Assembly (NCBI RefSeq): GCF_012027305.1 | Contig: NZ_SNUF01000003.1 | Coordinates: forward strand, 124,001 to 188,000 | From: Thermococcus sp. MAR1 | Lineage (GTDB): Archaea; Methanobacteriota_B; Thermococci; Thermococcales; Thermococcaceae | Direction: 5' to 3' | DNA length: 64,000 nt | Made by a program: the position numbers and the translations under genes | Part shown: one piece after another, positions 57,417-64,000 of the stretch | How positions within the stretch are numbered: position 1 is the stretch's first letter | Layout: each line of letters begins with the position of its first letter | Notes under the pieces: model-generated | Databases searched by the model: none | What the model saw: the letters and a program-made list of their open reading frames with translations, nothing else | What the model was told of the DNA's origin: nothing

Positions 57417-57494
57417 GGGCCGGTGGCCTAGTCAGGACAGGGCGTCGGCCTCCGGAGCCGAAGGTCGCGGGTTCAAATCCCGCCCGGCCCGCCA
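57417..57494 (+). tRNA. tRNA-Arg (CCG), with integrated-element junction
   Basis: The cloverleaf has acceptor GGGCCGG pairing with CCGGCCC, discriminator G, encoded CCA at 57492-57494, T arm GGTTCAAATCC and anticodon CCG at 57452-57454 in the loop CTCCGGA. It decodes CGG. A TATA-like TTTTTAAA (about 57383-57390) lies upstream. The 3' half is read antisense by an integrase-like fragment, so this tRNA is the probable attachment site of the mobile element that follows. Confidence 0.95.
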
Positions 57495-57638
57495 GAAATT
57501 TTGATTTTGTTGCGTTCCTGACATTATTGCCATATACAAAAGAGCTGCTGCCTCAAAAAATGCAGACTTCTGAATGTCGTTCTCATTCAAAAAAGCAATT
57601 ATTTGGTCGCTCACTGTGATACATATGCGCTTCCTCAA
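57432..57638 (-). pseudogene. N-terminal fragment of an SSV-type integrase, Int(N), overlapping the tRNA
   Basis: Reading the minus strand from TTG at 57638 (behind GGGGGTGAG), a 68-residue frame starts with a ribbon-helix-helix-like stretch (RICITVSDQIIAFLNENDIQ) and then reads through the tRNA 3' half as RAGRDLNPRP. SSV-type integrases carry their attachment site inside the gene, and after integration an N-terminal piece stays at one border; SSV1 Int has a similar tRNA-derived passage. No catalytic domain is present. The C-terminal fragment should lie at the other border, beyond the window. The tRNA-derived tail alone would be a translation artefact, so support rests on the first 50 residues. 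Confidence 0.55.
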
Positions 57639-57872
57639 AGTCCTCACCCCCAATGCGCAAAAATATCACAAAACTGATACTATTTTGGCCGACGGTCATA
57701 TTTATTTTTGCCTCTTACAAGCCTCCATCTCAAAAATTGACTGATACAAAGGCAAGTTTTATTTCGATGATGTGCAATAGCCGATGGTCACCTCGAGGTG
57801 GCCGCGTGAATAGCATCTTGCCATCATCCTGTGGCTACGTATGGCCGGGGGGCTATTGCCCCCCACCAGAAC
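57639..57872. other. Element left border, no gene seen
   Basis: AT-rich DNA then a structured part. It contains a perfect hairpin GGGGGGC-TATT-GCCCCCC (57847-57864), a near-palindrome GGTCACCTCGAGGTGGCC (about 57785-57802) and an inverted pair GCAATAGCC/GGCTATTGC (about 57774 and 57851) enclosing the palindrome. The hairpin lies just past the helicase stop and may end that transcript, though no T-run follows. No reading frame of interest. Confidence 0.4.
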
Positions 57873-59528
57873 TCAAAACCTCACGTACCCCAACACAGAC
57901 CTCTTTGACTTGCTCGTGAGAACATAAAGACTCTCTCTCGCACGAGTCATCGCAACGTAGAGAACCCTTACCTCTTCCTTCAGAGCATTCTCATCCCTTT
58001 GAATCTCTTTTTCGATCTTACGATTCACGAAATCAATGACAATGACAACATCGGCCTCTTCGCCCTTTGCGGCGTGCATCGTGTCCACGTAGATTATCTT
58101 TCCATTCCTCCTCTTTCTGAGCCCAGCCAAAACACGCTTCTCTTCCGGATCAAGGACATCAAGATAATGGTTCTCAATGAACCTCGCAAGGGATAGAACG
58201 TCATCAGAGCACTCTCCGGCTCCATTGTCTTCATTATTGGAGCTTTCCTCTCCAGTAAGGCATTCTTCGACCTTTATTATAGCATCTACAGGCGTTTTGA
58301 ACAGTGATCGAAGACGAATTCCTTCCTCATTCAGAGAAGTTACAGCGAAGAACAGCCTCAGCCCAATGCTCCTTTTCTCCTCGAAGGCGATGACTTCCTC
58401 AAGAAGGTCATAAAGACTGTCGTCATTCTTTATTCTTGAGACTCTGTATCCTGCCTCGATGATGTACTTTTCAATCTCTCTCGCTTGCTTGTTTGTTCGT
58501 GTAAGGACGAACACGGTCTTATCTTCATCCATAATGCTTTCAAGAATCTGAATTACTCTATCACCGGTTGTTCTGTCCATCTTGAGGAGATTGGACTTTT
58601 TCAGGTACTCTGTGATGGCCTTACCAGGTTCCTCACGTGGCTCATACTCGAAGTGGACCCCGAGCCACCGTGTGAGCATCTCCGCCTTGTTGTACACGTG
58701 CTTGGGTAGCCTATAACTTTTCTTCAATACAACAACTGTACCGGACGCCATAAAATTTGCAAACTCGGAAGGGTCAGCCCCCTGGAATGAATATATCGAC
58801 TGATTCGGGTCTCCAGCTGCAACGACATAGTCAAGGAGACCAATGCTTCTCAACCTCTTCACGACTGCCCATTGAAGAGGACTGAAGTCCTGAGCTTCGT
58901 CCATTATCATGACCCTGGGCTCACTGCCCTCCTTTTCTGGAGCGAGTGTAGCAGGAGTGGTTGTAAGGAAGTATCTGAGAACTGACGCATAGTCAAAAAT
59001 GCCCTTTTCTTCCTTCCATGCTACGTAGTCCCTTATTCTCTGGTACACGGCGTCTTTCTCCTGTTGTTTTACGATTTTGAGGATTTCATTGCTGTCTTTA
59101 TCATAATAGACGTTGAAATAGTAGTTGTACCTTATCTCGGCAACGTTCGACGGGTGTGAACTGAACCGATCCCTGAAGTCATAGCCATAGTTCATTTCCA
59201 TCATCGCGGCAATAAATGGCTCTCTCATGAATCCTGCGGGTGTGAGGAGTTTATTCCGCATAAGAACCCTTGTGATGTAACTATGCAGAGTGTACGCGTT
59301 GTAAATTCCTCTCTCTTTCAGAACCCTGACCGCAGAAGTTGTAAAGGTGAGAAAGAGAACCTCATCGCCCGTGTAATCCCTCCTCATGATGAGCTTGTTG
59401 AGGCCGTATCGTTGCACGAAGTTGGCAACGTCTTTGGAAACGTCTCCGGTAAAGTACTTGTAAAGATTGAAGAGAGCAGAGGTTTTTCCTGTCCCTGGAG
59501 GCCCCAGAATGGTTATCTGAGCGTTCAT
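57873..59528 (-). CDS. UvrD/Rep-like superfamily 1 DNA helicase
   Basis: 551 residues with the SF1A helicase motifs in order: [10 protein letters not shown] (residues about 8-16), II MIMDEAQDFS, III AAGDPNQSIYSFQGA, IV KKSYRLP, V DTMHAAKGEEADVV and VI LYVAMTRARE. UvrD-type helicases are rare in Thermococcales chromosomes but typical of their plasmids and integrated elements. The ATG overlaps the primase stop (ATGA). It is the last gene of the presumed replication operon. Confidence 0.85.
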   Translation of the reverse strand: MNAQITILGPPGTGKTSALFNLYKYFTGDVSKDVANFVQRYGLNKLIMRRDYTGDEVLFLTFTTSAVRVLKERGIYNAYTLHSYITRVLMRNKLLTPAGFMREPFIAAMMEMNYGYDFRDRFSSHPSNVAEIRYNYYFNVYYDKDSNEILKIVKQQEKDAVYQRIRDYVAWKEEKGIFDYASVLRYFLTTTPATLAPEKEGSEPRVMIMDEAQDFSPLQWAVVKRLRSIGLLDYVVAAGDPNQSIYSFQGADPSEFANFMASGTVVVLKKSYRLPKHVYNKAEMLTRWLGVHFEYEPREEPGKAITEYLKKSNLLKMDRTTGDRVIQILESIMDEDKTVFVLTRTNKQAREIEKYIIEAGYRVSRIKNDDSLYDLLEEVIAFEEKRSIGLRLFFAVTSLNEEGIRLRSLFKTPVDAIIKVEECLTGEESSNNEDNGAGECSDDVLSLARFIENHYLDVLDPEEKRVLAGLRKRRNGKIIYVDTMHAAKGEEADVVIVIDFVNRKIEKEIQRDENALKEEVRVLYVAMTRARESLYVLTSKSKRSVLGYVRF

Positions 59529-61534
59529 GCTGTAACACCCTTCTCGGCAATCTCATCAAGATCCAAGTACTCCTGTTCATTCAAGTACTCATCAATGGTC
59601 TTTATGGGAGGCTTTATGGCGTTCTCTTTCTCAAGGAAGTCAAAGAATCTGTCTGAAATCAGATAATAGAGGTATACATGCCTCCCATTCTTCAAAGATT
59701 TGCTCCGTCTGACTTCTCTCCAAGTTTTCTTGTCAATAATACCCATTCTGTGAAGGAACTTGGCAAGAGTTCTGGCGAATCCACGGGTGTCAGATCCGTA
59801 CTCGAGAAGGTGAGGATCGAAGTAGATTCTGTTCTCGTTTTCGGCGTAGATCATTATCCTCTTCCTGAACAGCTCATCTACACGGTCTCCGCTTATTGAA
59901 TTCAGCTCGTCGATTTTCACTATCCAAAAGACCTCAGTCTCGATGATATTCAGGAAACCATTCTTGACATCTTCGTACTCTTCTATTACAATCTCCTTTG
60001 CGTTTCTTGTAACGAATGCATAGTAATCCAGCATTATTTTGGCGAGAACGTCGTTGAACTTTCTCCTTTCCTGTTTGTTGAGATTCCTGATTGAAAGCGG
60101 ATCAACGATGTAAACCCCGAAATGAGCCATAAAGTCCTCGTTGAGGGAGTAGAACATCTTTTCCTTCTCTGTCCGCTCCTTGTTCTTGAGAACGATCGTC
60201 TCAACCTTTCCAGCTGTCTCCACGGTAAACGAGACCTTATATGTCACCTTACCGCTCCGTTCGTCCACTTCCTTGATTATATCGGAGGTGCGTTCGATAA
60301 GCCACTCAAGAAGGTCAAAATTATTGGAGAGAACTCTCCGAGCACTTGTTACAGAGTACTCACTTGGCTTATCCCCTGTTTTTCTCATTGCTCGCTGGTA
60401 GTAAGAGCGGAGTGCTCTGTTGAGCTCCCAGATGGTACCTTTCCCCAGATAGCTCTTGTAGTTCTTCAGCGTCGCCGAGTACGTATCCAGAACTGCTCTC
60501 TCCCGGTCCTCCCATGGATCACTATCCTGGGTCTCAATGTACACTCTTCTCACAACTTCGAGTGTATCCTCCACTGGAATCCCCCGGTGCCAGGCAAAGG
60601 CGGCAAATCCAAGGATGAGATTGTGCCTCCTGCCCGGCATGTAGTACTTTTTCAGGACTTCTACCAAGGCGTCTTTTTCCTCGCTGTTGAGCCTTATGTT
60701 GCCCCTATTCTCAATGTGAAGCTCTTCCTGCGTTGTGATCCCTTCCCGGAGCTTCTTCTCAATAAGTCCCTCAATTTCGAGCCTGTTTGTTCCAGAAACT
60801 TCAACTATCTTTGAAACGGACTCGTAGATTGTTCCAGCTATCTCACGCCTGTTCACGGTCCAAGCAACTCTCATAATGCGCGAGGGATTGTACACGCTCT
60901 TGTCTACGGCATTCTCGACGAGATAGACGTAGTTGGGGTCTATACTCTCTTTGAGAACCCTCTCAAACTCGTCTGCGAGTTCCCTCCCGACTTCCCGAAA
61001 AGCCGCCTGCCAGTTTCTGTCCCCAACCTCTACGGGATTTACCTTGAGATACACATGGAAGCCAAAGCCTGAGAAAACCAGCATGTACCTGAAGTTGTAC
61101 TTCCCAAACAGCTTCTGAACAGCTCTCTTTATCGCTTCCTTCACGGCTGATATCTCAACCCCAGAGGGGGCCCTATTGTGGAAGACATCCACATCAATTG
61201 GCAGGTTTATCACTTCAAGTATGTCATCGTTCGTAAAGGAACCCTCCTTCTGACCTCCCGCTGGATTTATCGTGACATATATACCCTTTATTCTGCTGTC
61301 CGAGTTCATTTCTCTGATGATGTAATTCGTAGCCCTTCCAATGTCCTTGATTCTGAACATCCTACGCTTTACGCTTTCATCCATCCCGAGAATTCTTATC
61401 TCGAACCAGTACTCTTGGTTCGTGTTCTCATAGAGAAACTCCAAGTATTTCTTTATCATGCCAGAAAGAGCTTCCCTGTTTTCGAGGATTGCCCTGTCTT
61501 CGTCGCTGATAAGACTGGCGTACTTCGGCATCAT
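59525..61534 (-). CDS. Archaeo-eukaryotic primase-polymerase of a mobile element
   Basis: 669 residues. The N-terminal part has the catalytic pattern of the archaeo-eukaryotic primase superfamily: D114 and D116 in PIDVDVFH, S155 and H160 in FSGFGFH, and D211 in VDKSVYNPSRIMR. The C-terminal half, of winged-helix or helical character, is not recognised. It resembles the primase-polymerases of Thermococcales plasmids such as pTN2, as I recall, and probably primes replication of the element with the downstream helicase. GGTGATGG precedes the start. A defence role cannot be excluded. Confidence 0.72.
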   Translation of the reverse strand: MMPKYASLISDEDRAILENREALSGMIKKYLEFLYENTNQEYWFEIRILGMDESVKRRMFRIKDIGRATNYIIREMNSDSRIKGIYVTINPAGGQKEGSFTNDDILEVINLPIDVDVFHNRAPSGVEISAVKEAIKRAVQKLFGKYNFRYMLVFSGFGFHVYLKVNPVEVGDRNWQAAFREVGRELADEFERVLKESIDPNYVYLVENAVDKSVYNPSRIMRVAWTVNRREIAGTIYESVSKIVEVSGTNRLEIEGLIEKKLREGITTQEELHIENRGNIRLNSEEKDALVEVLKKYYMPGRRHNLILGFAAFAWHRGIPVEDTLEVVRRVYIETQDSDPWEDRERAVLDTYSATLKNYKSYLGKGTIWELNRALRSYYQRAMRKTGDKPSEYSVTSARRVLSNNFDLLEWLIERTSDIIKEVDERSGKVTYKVSFTVETAGKVETIVLKNKERTEKEKMFYSLNEDFMAHFGVYIVDPLSIRNLNKQERRKFNDVLAKIMLDYYAFVTRNAKEIVIEEYEDVKNGFLNIIETEVFWIVKIDELNSISGDRVDELFRKRIMIYAENENRIYFDPHLLEYGSDTRGFARTLAKFLHRMGIIDKKTWREVRRSKSLKNGRHVYLYYLISDRFFDFLEKENAIKPPIKTIDEYLNEQEYLDLDEIAEKGVTA

Positions 61535-61989
61535 TGCCCATCACCCCTGAGAAGCCTCTGAATCTCTTCTACATGCCATGCAAGGTGCTTTTTGTCCCAT
61601 TCCGTAAGTCCATCTTCCCTCATTATCCTATGGATGGCTATTGAGACATAGTTGAGAGAAGCGACAAGATCTTCATGATTGTTGTAGAACTCCCTCACAA
61701 CATCGCCCACGATTGCATCTACGGCCTTTATGTACTCCCGTATCCCCTTTGGATTGTCCGTACGAACCGGAAAGACTGCCTTGAAGGAGAATTCTTCTTC
61801 TGTTTCCTTGAGAAACCTTATCCTCTCCTTGTCTTTCAAATCAAGGCCCCAATAGGTTATGTCATCAATAGTGATCTCACCACGGGCTATCTTTTTTGCC
61901 AGCTCTACCTGGGTAGTCATAAACCTCTTTGAAGCCCTTCTGAGAAGGTACTTTGTGGATGCAGGTATGTACAGATTGTACCTACCCAT
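61531..61989 (-). CDS. Element operon leader gene, unknown function
   Basis: 152 residues, largely helical, no recognised family. The N-terminus (RYNLYIPASTKYLLRRASKRF) resembles a basic DNA-binding start, and the C-terminal half could be a helical bundle. It is the first gene of the 152-aa protein - primase - helicase operon and overlaps the primase by 4 bp. Given the palindrome in its promoter, it could encode the local repressor or a replication accessory. GAGGTGAAATC precedes its ATG. Confidence 0.6.
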   Translation of the reverse strand: MGRYNLYIPASTKYLLRRASKRFMTTQVELAKKIARGEITIDDITYWGLDLKDKERIRFLKETEEEFSFKAVFPVRTDNPKGIREYIKAVDAIVGDVVREFYNNHEDLVASLNYVSIAIHRIMREDGLTEWDKKHLAWHVEEIQRLLRGDGQ

Positions 61990-62010
61990 CTGATTTCACC
62001 TCAACATTAT

Positions 62011-62031
62011 GTGTGCGCACACTATATAAAA
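62011..62031 (-). promoter_or_regulatory. Element promoter: TATA box adjoining a perfect 12-bp palindrome
   Basis: On the minus strand a TTTATATA box (62031-62024) is followed 1 bp later by GTGTGCGCACAC (62022-62011), an uninterrupted palindrome. It sits between the TATA box and the start of transcription, the usual place for a repressor operator in archaea. The ATG of the 152-aa gene is about 22 bp further on. Confidence 0.6.
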
Positions 62032-62254
62032 ACTTTTTCGTCTCAATACTGAAGGACAATTCCCTCAAAACTGGGGATAAACTACGAACAGGGAGATCAA
62101 TAATAGTAACCATCGGGTCGATTCACGACTCCTGATGTACGAGGTGGGGTAGTGTAGGGGCTATCTCTATTGATGCCATTGAATATGTTGGTGGATCGTG
62201 CTTCGTGAATCAAATCCCTCACAGCTACTTATAAGGGGAGCAAAAGAGAAAAGA
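62032..62254. other. Element intergenic region with inverted repeat, no gene seen
   Basis: The region holds the 9-bp inverted pair GATTCACGA (62120-62128) and TCGTGAATC (62203-62211). A replication origin or regulatory site could lie here next to the primase operon, but I see no repeated iterons. No convincing reading frame. Confidence 0.35.
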
Positions 62255-64000
62255 TTACTCCTTCCCAAGTTCCTCAACGTCAATACCCAGCTGTCTGAAC
62301 GTCTCAAGCAGATTCTCATACTCCATCGGGCTCATGTTCCCATTCTCCGCCTTTATCTCGATGGTAACTCTCTCAAACTTGCTCTTCAGCAGGTTCAACG
62401 CCCTCAATATGTCCCTCAGCCCTCCAGTTCCGGGCCCCAGTGTCAGGTGCAGGTGAATGGACTCTACCTGGCTTTCCACAACTTCTTTTCTTCCCTCTGT
62501 TTCCGAGGGCACAAGCATGGCCTGCTTGTCCCTGACTGCTGGAGGCTTCCATTCCTCCTCAGGAGCTCCAGCTACGCTCTCAGCTGTAGCTTTTTCTTGA
62601 GCTATAGCTTGAGCTTCTGCCTCAGCTTCAGCCTTTGCTCTCTCCCTCAGCTCTTCGCAGTACTTCCTGTTCACGATGACCTCTTTCTCGTCAAGGGTAA
62701 CCGTAGGCCTTTCACCAAGGTACTCGCAGGTTACCTCCTCTCCCGTGAGGTACCCCAATCCAAAGCGCCCCTCGCTTACCCCCTGCCGTATCGCGTCTAT
62801 AAGCACGCTCTTACTCTTCAAGAGTGGCATCCCCGGGGTCTTGAGGAAGCTCTCGTAGAGTGCCTTCGTTGGGATATACCCCTTCCCGTCCAAGTATTTC
62901 ATCTCGATGACCACTGGAGCCATCTTCTCGACGAGCTTACCCTCTTCTCTGAGCTTCTCGTAGACGAGCTCCTCGATGGTCTTCTTGATGCCCACGGGCT
63001 TCATGCCGAGGTCAAGCTCTTCGTAGCCGCCACGAGTGGGAAGCAGTACGAGCCTGTAAAGCTCTGCTATCTTCTGAACGATGTCTTCTCTTGCCCGCTT
63101 CAAATTCTCCTTCACGTCATCCTTTTGCTCTGAAGTGAGCTCCAGAGAACCCTTCTTTGCCTTCTCGTCGATGGTCTTCCATGCAATATACCTCCTCACG
63201 AGCCTGTTGAAACTGGCCCTCTCCGTCTCCCTTGGAACGAGGAAGATGAGGGTGTTCTTGTGAACCCTCTCGCTACCGCCGTAAGATTGCAGAATCTGGA
63301 GAACCTTCTCCTTGTCATACTCAGGAAGAACAACGAGCTTCAAGCTTGGATCGCTATCAGGAACGTCCACCGGTTTACTCGGCCACAGATAGACCTTGAA
63401 GTATCTGCCCTTGAGCTGACCCTTCAGCAGTTCGTGCTCAACATCCCTTATCTGTTCCTCGCTCACGTTGTTCATCTCGTCCACAACGAGCTTGTTGAGG
63501 CTTGGCTCAAGGCTGAAGAAGTACCGACCATCGCGGTAGTGAAGGTAGAGCAGATTGTCTTTGAGGTAGAGGATGGCGTCTCCCACTATACTACTCGAGT
63601 ACCTTGTATCGGCACAGGAGAGCTTTATTTCCTTCGTGGTGGCTCCCTTCACGTCTCCGCCTGAGAAGGAGTACATGAAGATGACAGTGGCCGCTCTCGT
63701 CCCCACGCGATAGTGCTCGTAGGATTCTCCGACCATCCTGTCAACCCGCTTTGCGCCGGAGTTGGGCGAGAGAATGTCCGCATCAAGGACGGAATAGTAC
63801 CTGCTCTCCCCTATGATGTCTATGAGCTCGTCCCTGAGCGTCTTGACACTCAAGTCGAAGTCAGATAGCCTGATGAAGGATACATCCCTTCCGATGAGCG
63901 AGTGGACCACTATTGAGAGAAGCCTCAGCACACCCCTTGTTCTCTGGAACTTCGGCAGACTACCCCAGCGGTGGTAGAGAACGTCAATGACCTCCGGCTG
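62255..64000 (-). CDS. DUF499 family ATPase, 5' part beyond the window
   Basis: The frame is open to base 64000, so the start of the gene is missing; 582 residues are visible. The part nearest the edge, LYHRWGSLPKFQRTRGVLRLLS, is characteristic of DUF499 proteins, which are about 1000 residues with an N-terminal P-loop ATPase not seen here. A low-complexity Ala/Glu linker (about 62570-62650) precedes a C-terminal domain (ESIHLHLTLGPGTGGLRD). DUF499 genes are known from defence islands beside DUF1156 DNA methylases. The neighbour just outside the window would decide this. Confidence 0.72.
   Translation of the reverse strand, partial: QPEVIDVLYHRWGSLPKFQRTRGVLRLLSIVVHSLIGRDVSFIRLSDFDLSVKTLRDELIDIIGESRYYSVLDADILSPNSGAKRVDRMVGESYEHYRVGTRAATVIFMYSFSGGDVKGATTKEIKLSCADTRYSSSIVGDAILYLKDNLLYLHYRDGRYFFSLEPSLNKLVVDEMNNVSEEQIRDVEHELLKGQLKGRYFKVYLWPSKPVDVPDSDPSLKLVVLPEYDKEKVLQILQSYGGSERVHKNTLIFLVPRETERASFNRLVRRYIAWKTIDEKAKKGSLELTSEQKDDVKENLKRAREDIVQKIAELYRLVLLPTRGGYEELDLGMKPVGIKKTIEELVYEKLREEGKLVEKMAPVVIEMKYLDGKGYIPTKALYESFLKTPGMPLLKSKSVLIDAIRQGVSEGRFGLGYLTGEEVTCEYLGERPTVTLDEKEVIVNRKYCEELRERAKAEAEAEAQAIAQEKATAESVAGAPEEEWKPPAVRDKQAMLVPSETEGRKEVVESQVESIHLHLTLGPGTGGLRDILRALNLLKSKFERVTIEIKAENGNMSPMEYENLLETFRQLGIDVEELGKE

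Follow-up and report, generated by a model that had tools for sequence, protein, structure and literature searches.

The integrated element tgv2 of Thermococcus gammatolerans EJ3 was reported in 2009 (Zivanovic) with a tRNA-Arg target, a 48-bp att repeat, a split integrase, a resolvase and a UvrD helicase (PMC2718504). It was first described as virus-related, and its 'type III' restriction-modification (R/M) proteins were both detected in the proteome (PMC2718504). The prim-pol of tgv2 was linked to pIRI48 in 2013 and the pTN2 replicase is a demonstrated primase-polymerase (PMC3543421). Hma (Payne 2021, PMC8565338) is a type-1 BREX-related system, in which a C-terminal PD-(D/E)xK nuclease on the helicase is typical (79% of cases) (PMC12839542).

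The window, a stretch of 64,000 nucleotides (C3:124001-188000) from the 2.02 Mb genome of Thermococcus sp. MAR1 (G000), was analysed within its contig, C3, and relatives were sought in a comparison set of 94 Thermococcales genomes, designated by G-numbers. Positions in L014 are converted to window positions by adding 57000. A preliminary description of the window had placed an integrated element at tRNA-Arg(CCG), cut by the window edge, and the element was indeed found to run on beyond the edge to a second att copy (Table 1). The locus is very probably a plasmid of the tgv2 kind that has inserted into the 3' half of tRNA-Arg(CCG) and that carries a replication module together with the full set of Hma genes.

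Table 1. Positions of the features delimiting and occupying the left part and ends of the MAR1 element (window coordinates unless a contig or locus is named)
Feature	Position	Strand	Evidence
tRNA-Arg(CCG), integration target	57417..57494	+	ARAGORN
attL core, 48 bp	57447..57494	+	blastn 48/48 vs attR
Int(N), first 68 residues of an SSV-type integrase, after which the frame continues into the tRNA	57432..57653	-	97-100% aa identity to Int(N) of G007/G011
SF1 (UvrD/Rep-like) DNA helicase, 551 aa	57873..59528	-	Pfam UvrD-helicase 5.2e-21; Walker motif
Replication protein of 669 aa, AEP-type primase (prim-pol)-like	59525..61534	-	hhalign to pIRI48/pTN2 replicases
152-aa protein, upstream of primase	61531..61989	-	AlphaFold pLDDT 92-97 over residues 1-40
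HmaC, DUF499 AAA+ ATPase, 904 aa	62255..64000, on to window-equivalent 64969	-	PADLOC HmaC 2e-131
Int(C)	L014:18974-19831	-	Pfam Phage_integr_3, 2.8e-24
attR, identical 48-bp copy	C3:200781-200828 (window-equivalent 76781-76828)		blastn 48/48

The exact att core, GGCCTCCGGAGCC...CGCCA, is a direct repeat of 48 bp, and the element measures 19,334 bp from core to core. A repeat of the tRNA 3' part had been predicted from 57452-57494 (43 bp); the repeat exists, but its true extent is the 48 bp listed in Table 1. The tRNA 3' part recurs 12.8 kb beyond the window edge, at C3:200781-200831, and the other tRNA genes of G000 match the 3'-part query far less well. Chance does not account for 48 bases matching exactly between the 3' end of a tRNA gene and the terminus of an integrase gene at a distance of 19 kb. 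The tRNA gene is kept intact because the element supplies its 3' part. Relatives with an empty tRNA-Arg(CCG) locus, named beforehand as the comparison to make, were identified in G019, G059 and G002, in which the left flank, the tRNA and the right flank are contiguous; G019 is the closest relative of MAR1 (dS 0.22-0.31 over three neighbouring genes).

Contig C3 comprises 200,957 bases, of which 12,957 follow the window, and stops 129 bp after attR. The break is explained by the 126 bases on the right-hand side of attR, which belong to a dispersed intergenic repeat that also terminates contig C2. The right flank was therefore rejected as unique sequence and assigned to a dispersed intergenic hairpin repeat. 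Such an ending would suit the view that faulty assembly produced the repeat and the join, but both att copies lie within this one contig. G007 and G011, whose chromosomes are each a single contig, independently show the same arrangement and in practice refute an artefact; that explanation was rejected as having practically no likelihood. By comparison with G002, the chromosome would resume at C1:1 after a gap of approximately 133 bases. The dispersed hairpin repeat (GAAACTTT-N-AAAGTTTCATCA) is found in contigs C1, C2 and C3 (e.g. L014:19908-19935), with 16 exact copies in the G000 genome against 0 for the reversed control, and a longer intergenic repeat has several copies near tRNA genes, one of them terminating C3. 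Approximately 1.2 kb of intergenic sequence after tRNA-Arg(CCG) (L191, C1:1-1238, and L030) is 97.5% identical between G000 and G002, despite a coding dS of about 1.3 between the two genomes. Further Int(N)-like remnants lie at tRNA-Arg(CCG) in G046 (L187:10012-10110) and G035 (L190:8753-8962), pointing to apparent reuse of the site by other elements. Elsewhere in G000, on C2 (L203:4691-10151), a 425-aa integrase comes after tRNA-Gln(TTG), together with a pair of genes that recalls, by eye, the COG5340/COG2253 toxin-antitoxin genes from the P. yayanosii island PYG1.

The Int(N)-like frame seen in the window by the preliminary description is antisense over the 3' half of tRNA-Arg(CCG), as it had stated, and the right end that it expected downstream was located with both the second att copy and Int(C). 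When the right end, core and left end were joined as a circle, Int(N) and Int(C) fused in frame into a single open SSV-type integrase of 341 aa. For its catalytic part, structures of the SSV integrase were matched, namely 3VCF (E 2.9e-6) and 4DKS, with the conserved Arg and Tyr positions of the tyrosine recombinase catalytic domain in alignment. The attP site is inside int, and integration leaves Int(N) and Int(C) at opposite ends of the element, where both halves were found. A ribbon-helix-helix fold considered for Int(N) is no more than a guess, having neither Pfam nor significant Foldseek support. The pT26-2/pTN3-type suicidal-integrase elements likewise have an SSV-type integrase with attP within the gene and a tRNA 3' target; however, integrase identity to the pT26-2/TGV1-type enzymes is merely 27-35%, and the replication genes of the pT26-2/pTN3-type elements are unlike those of the MAR1 element.

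From the left, the element encodes Int(N), the SF1 helicase, the primase-like protein, the 152-aa protein, HmaC, a 361-aa protein with one membrane helix, a 252-aa protein, a PIN-domain protein (weak Pfam match, below cut-off), HmaB, a 151-aa membrane protein, HmaA, a serine recombinase (Pfam Resolvase, 2.9e-38), an 87-aa coiled coil, small genes and Int(C). The earlier statement that only minus-strand genes lie behind the tRNA holds within the window but not beyond it, where the genes for the 252-aa protein, the PIN-domain protein, the serine recombinase and the 87-aa protein are on the plus strand. The 252-aa gene overlaps the PIN-domain gene (L014:9147-10573) on the strand opposite to the Hma operon, and in G007 and G055 PIN is lost and the 252-aa gene kept; this presence pattern fits a toxin-antitoxin pair, but there is no family support and no such pair is claimed. 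The G+C content differs between the replication part (45-48%) and the Hma part (50-56%), so that the element is probably a mosaic.

A UvrD-type helicase with an AEP primase had been recognised as the replication module of Thermococcales plasmids, which was corroborated by helicase identities of about 27% over 97-99% to those of pIRI48/pTN2 and by an hhalign match of the primase-like protein to the pIRI48/pTN2 replicases (P=97%, E=9.6e-11). For the window copy of the latter, the Pfam search gave no match and no curated family was matched, and a PDB sequence search returned nothing; one aligned homologue has weak AEP-family matches. Three AEP motifs are present (DVD at 114-116, SGFGFH at 155-160 and D211...R219..R222), and the top Foldseek matches, obtained with a low-confidence model, are primases (best 5e-4). 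Profile comparison, motifs and weak fold matches together point to an AEP-type primase-like replication protein. The 152-aa protein, modelled with an N-terminal strand-helix-helix, is possibly a ribbon-helix-helix regulator, for which fold there was no Pfam support and no significant Foldseek match. The order of small gene, prim-pol and SF1 helicase is that of the pTN2/pIRI48 plasmid family, but the C-terminal half of the MAR1 primase has no match there and the MAR1 element is integrated by means of its own integrase. By sequence relationship the replication part is a module related to pTN2/pIRI48; the element is not classed as a pTN2-like plasmid, the likeness being that of the helicase-primase module. 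No close free plasmid form was present in the plasmid set searched. A provirus, in place of a plasmid, might be suggested by the first account of tgv2 as virus-related (PMC2718504) and by the occurrence of SSV-type integrases in viruses; however, the element has no structural gene (the PHROG matches are the helicase, recombinase, integrase and one weak match of unknown function), IMG/VR contains no relatives of the primase or hmaA, and the replication genes are plasmid-like. On the first two of these grounds a provirus was rejected as highly improbable.

The DUF499 gene that the window edge truncates is one of the three genes of a complete Hma system, and the element is a relative of tgv2, neither of which the preliminary description had been in a position to see. 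PADLOC identified HmaA (7e-193) and HmaB (4e-140) in addition to HmaC, completing the gene set inside the element. HmaA is an SNF2 helicase with a C-terminal NOV_C nuclease domain (5.3e-22), HmaB a DUF1156 methylase and HmaC a DUF499 ATPase; the motifs GAGKT, DEAH, DPPY and GYDI...IEVK are present, and the PD-(D/E)xK residues D1010, E1023 and K1025 of HmaA, for which nuclease activity is predicted, are invariant in six copies. With a dN/dS of 0.04-0.06, hmaA is under purifying selection as estimated from these substitution rates. All three core proteins, the domain order and the motifs agree with Hma and type-1 BREX-related systems, but in MAR1 hmaA-hmaB-hmaC is interrupted by the 151-aa membrane gene, the 361-aa gene and the opposite-strand 252-aa/PIN pair, and HmaC is without the N-terminal HEPN extension, its ATPase beginning near residue 100. 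The best HmaA found outside Thermococcales is 53-55% identical. The MAR1 element is thus predicted to encode a complete Hma anti-virus system.

The element of G007 (C1:1520296-1540712 of that genome, 20.4 kb) has the length and content of tgv2, and G007 was taken as T. gammatolerans EJ3. It occupies the same tRNA with the same 48-bp att, and shares with the MAR1 element the split integrase (93-97%), helicase and primase (89-93%), HmaA (96% identity), HmaB (88%) and HmaC (94%). It differs in its host, which is another species, in two additional ATPase-type genes, a divergent serine recombinase (56%) and a truncated 252-aa gene, in the absence of the PIN, 361-aa and 151-aa genes, and in that its system was originally described as type III R/M and not as Hma. 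Gene order is collinear in G007 and G011, with the integrase, replication module and R/M-type genes shared. On these comparisons the MAR1 element is a sister of tgv2, a new copy of an already known element. The synteny of 57.5-64 kb is not conserved, the primase gene being found at >=88% in 5/94 Thermococcales genomes. Horizontal movement is indicated by the vacant site of the nearest relative together with the presence of the element in more distant species, and horizontal spread by a dS between G000 and G011 that is lower for the element (0.31 for hmaA, 0.48 for the primase) than for three host genes (1.2-1.9).

Close Hma loci, defined by an HmaA identity of >=80%, were found in nine of the 94 genomes, and all nine sit in tRNA-anchored elements that use four tRNA genes and at least three backbones: tRNA-Arg(CCG) (G000, G007, G011, G060 and G061), tRNA-Ile(GAT) (G055 and G047), tRNA-Gly(GCC) (G029) and tRNA-Val(GAC) (G071). 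Two att copies are present in 8/9 (on two contigs in G047), the G060 locus being one-sided and decayed, and an intact integrase of 341-411 aa could be rebuilt across attP in seven of the nine elements, including that of MAR1, at four tRNA genes. Replication genes are of the tgv2 type in five elements; G071 has a distant helicase and primase, G061 an MCM-like gene (a reading of a 557-aa ORF), and none were recognised in G029 or left in G060. Among the other Thermococcales DUF1156 loci, 0/19 lie within about 80 kb of such an integrase on the same contig, with split hits counted once (Fisher p about 1e-7 for 9/9 vs 0/19, or 3e-7 for 0/17; some of these loci are on short contigs). The nine loci form one clade, and the association is therefore a property of a lineage and not nine independent events. 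It suggests that in Thermococcales such plasmids are the usual carriers of the Hma system. In G056 (L189:7803-8123), the first 42 residues of HmaA adjoin the last 62 of HmaB beside tRNA-Thr(GGT), which has the structure of a scar of a deleted Hma locus.

As a free circle, the plasmid would replicate by means of the SF1 helicase and primase, and its intact integrase would recombine attP, inside int, with the tRNA gene, as judged from the families of these proteins. Integration would leave int in two parts, Int(N) and Int(C); the element should consequently be unable to excise alone and would need integrase supplied in trans. Once resident, it is predicted to use restriction-modification to guard the cell and thereby itself: self DNA would be marked by HmaB, the ATPase HmaC would recruit, and HmaA, an SNF2 motor with a C-terminal PD-(D/E)xK nuclease, would attack unmarked DNA. 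The benefit to the element is probably host protection together with the exclusion of rivals. It is also conceivable, if rather unlikely, that the element is no longer mobile, having been captured and kept only for the help of its defence genes to the host on the way to a chromosomal defence island. A split integrase is incapable of excision alone (PMC8371274), and at the same tRNA in G060 (L087:9446-20000, L088:1-1250) the Hma genes are intact with mere integrase traces, no replication genes and a hmaA dN/dS of 0.058, a locus best described from its remaining genes as an element reduced to defence genes with hmaA under purifying selection. In MAR1, however, both int halves, the helicase and the primase are all open and conserved (primase dN/dS about 0.1), and close copies occur in distant species, which speaks against such a capture.

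The copies at tRNA-Ile (G055) and tRNA-Arg (G000) were compared over an aligned 5 kb around attP, in which identity is mostly 78-95% but falls to 69-72% in a block of approximately 450 bases at attP, from which it climbs gradually to 80% in both directions. Identity drops again (74-77%) in the small gene next to Int(C), and a single short window farther away, at 69%, is also low in G011. Across the attP block, the Arg-site copies G007 and G011 remain at 95-99%. The G055 and G000 integrases share 11/40 residues in the stretch that includes the att-coded part and mostly 31-40/40 in the catalytic part, against 36-39/40 throughout for G007 and G000. An Ile-type Int(N) (80%) is also found at a tRNA-Ile in G009, apart from a tgv2-type backbone. 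The sister elements are likely a natural example of target switching, and the pattern agrees with the model of int(N)/int(C) exchange proposed by Badel and colleagues (reviewed in PMC8371274); no donor for such an exchange was found, and rapid divergence around att is an alternative explanation of the dip at attP. About even weight is given to the broader proposal that this Hma clade lives in Thermococcales only as cargo of suicidal-integrase plasmids, which would switch tRNA by swapping a short int(N)-attP block and so carry one defence cassette to different tRNA genes, sometimes leaving it there (G060).

The 'virus-related' element of 2009 is hereby re-read as one of a family of plasmids that carry defence genes, at least nine of which are recognised when remnants are included, and BREX-related defence is linked to archaeal suicidal integrases. 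What is new from the comparison is that the nine close Hma loci all lie in tRNA-anchored elements, with a likely target switch at tRNA-Ile. Sister elements in two tRNA genes permit a direct test of the proposed target-switching mechanism and, since T. gammatolerans is cultured, the questions of defence and of target switching are accessible to experiment.
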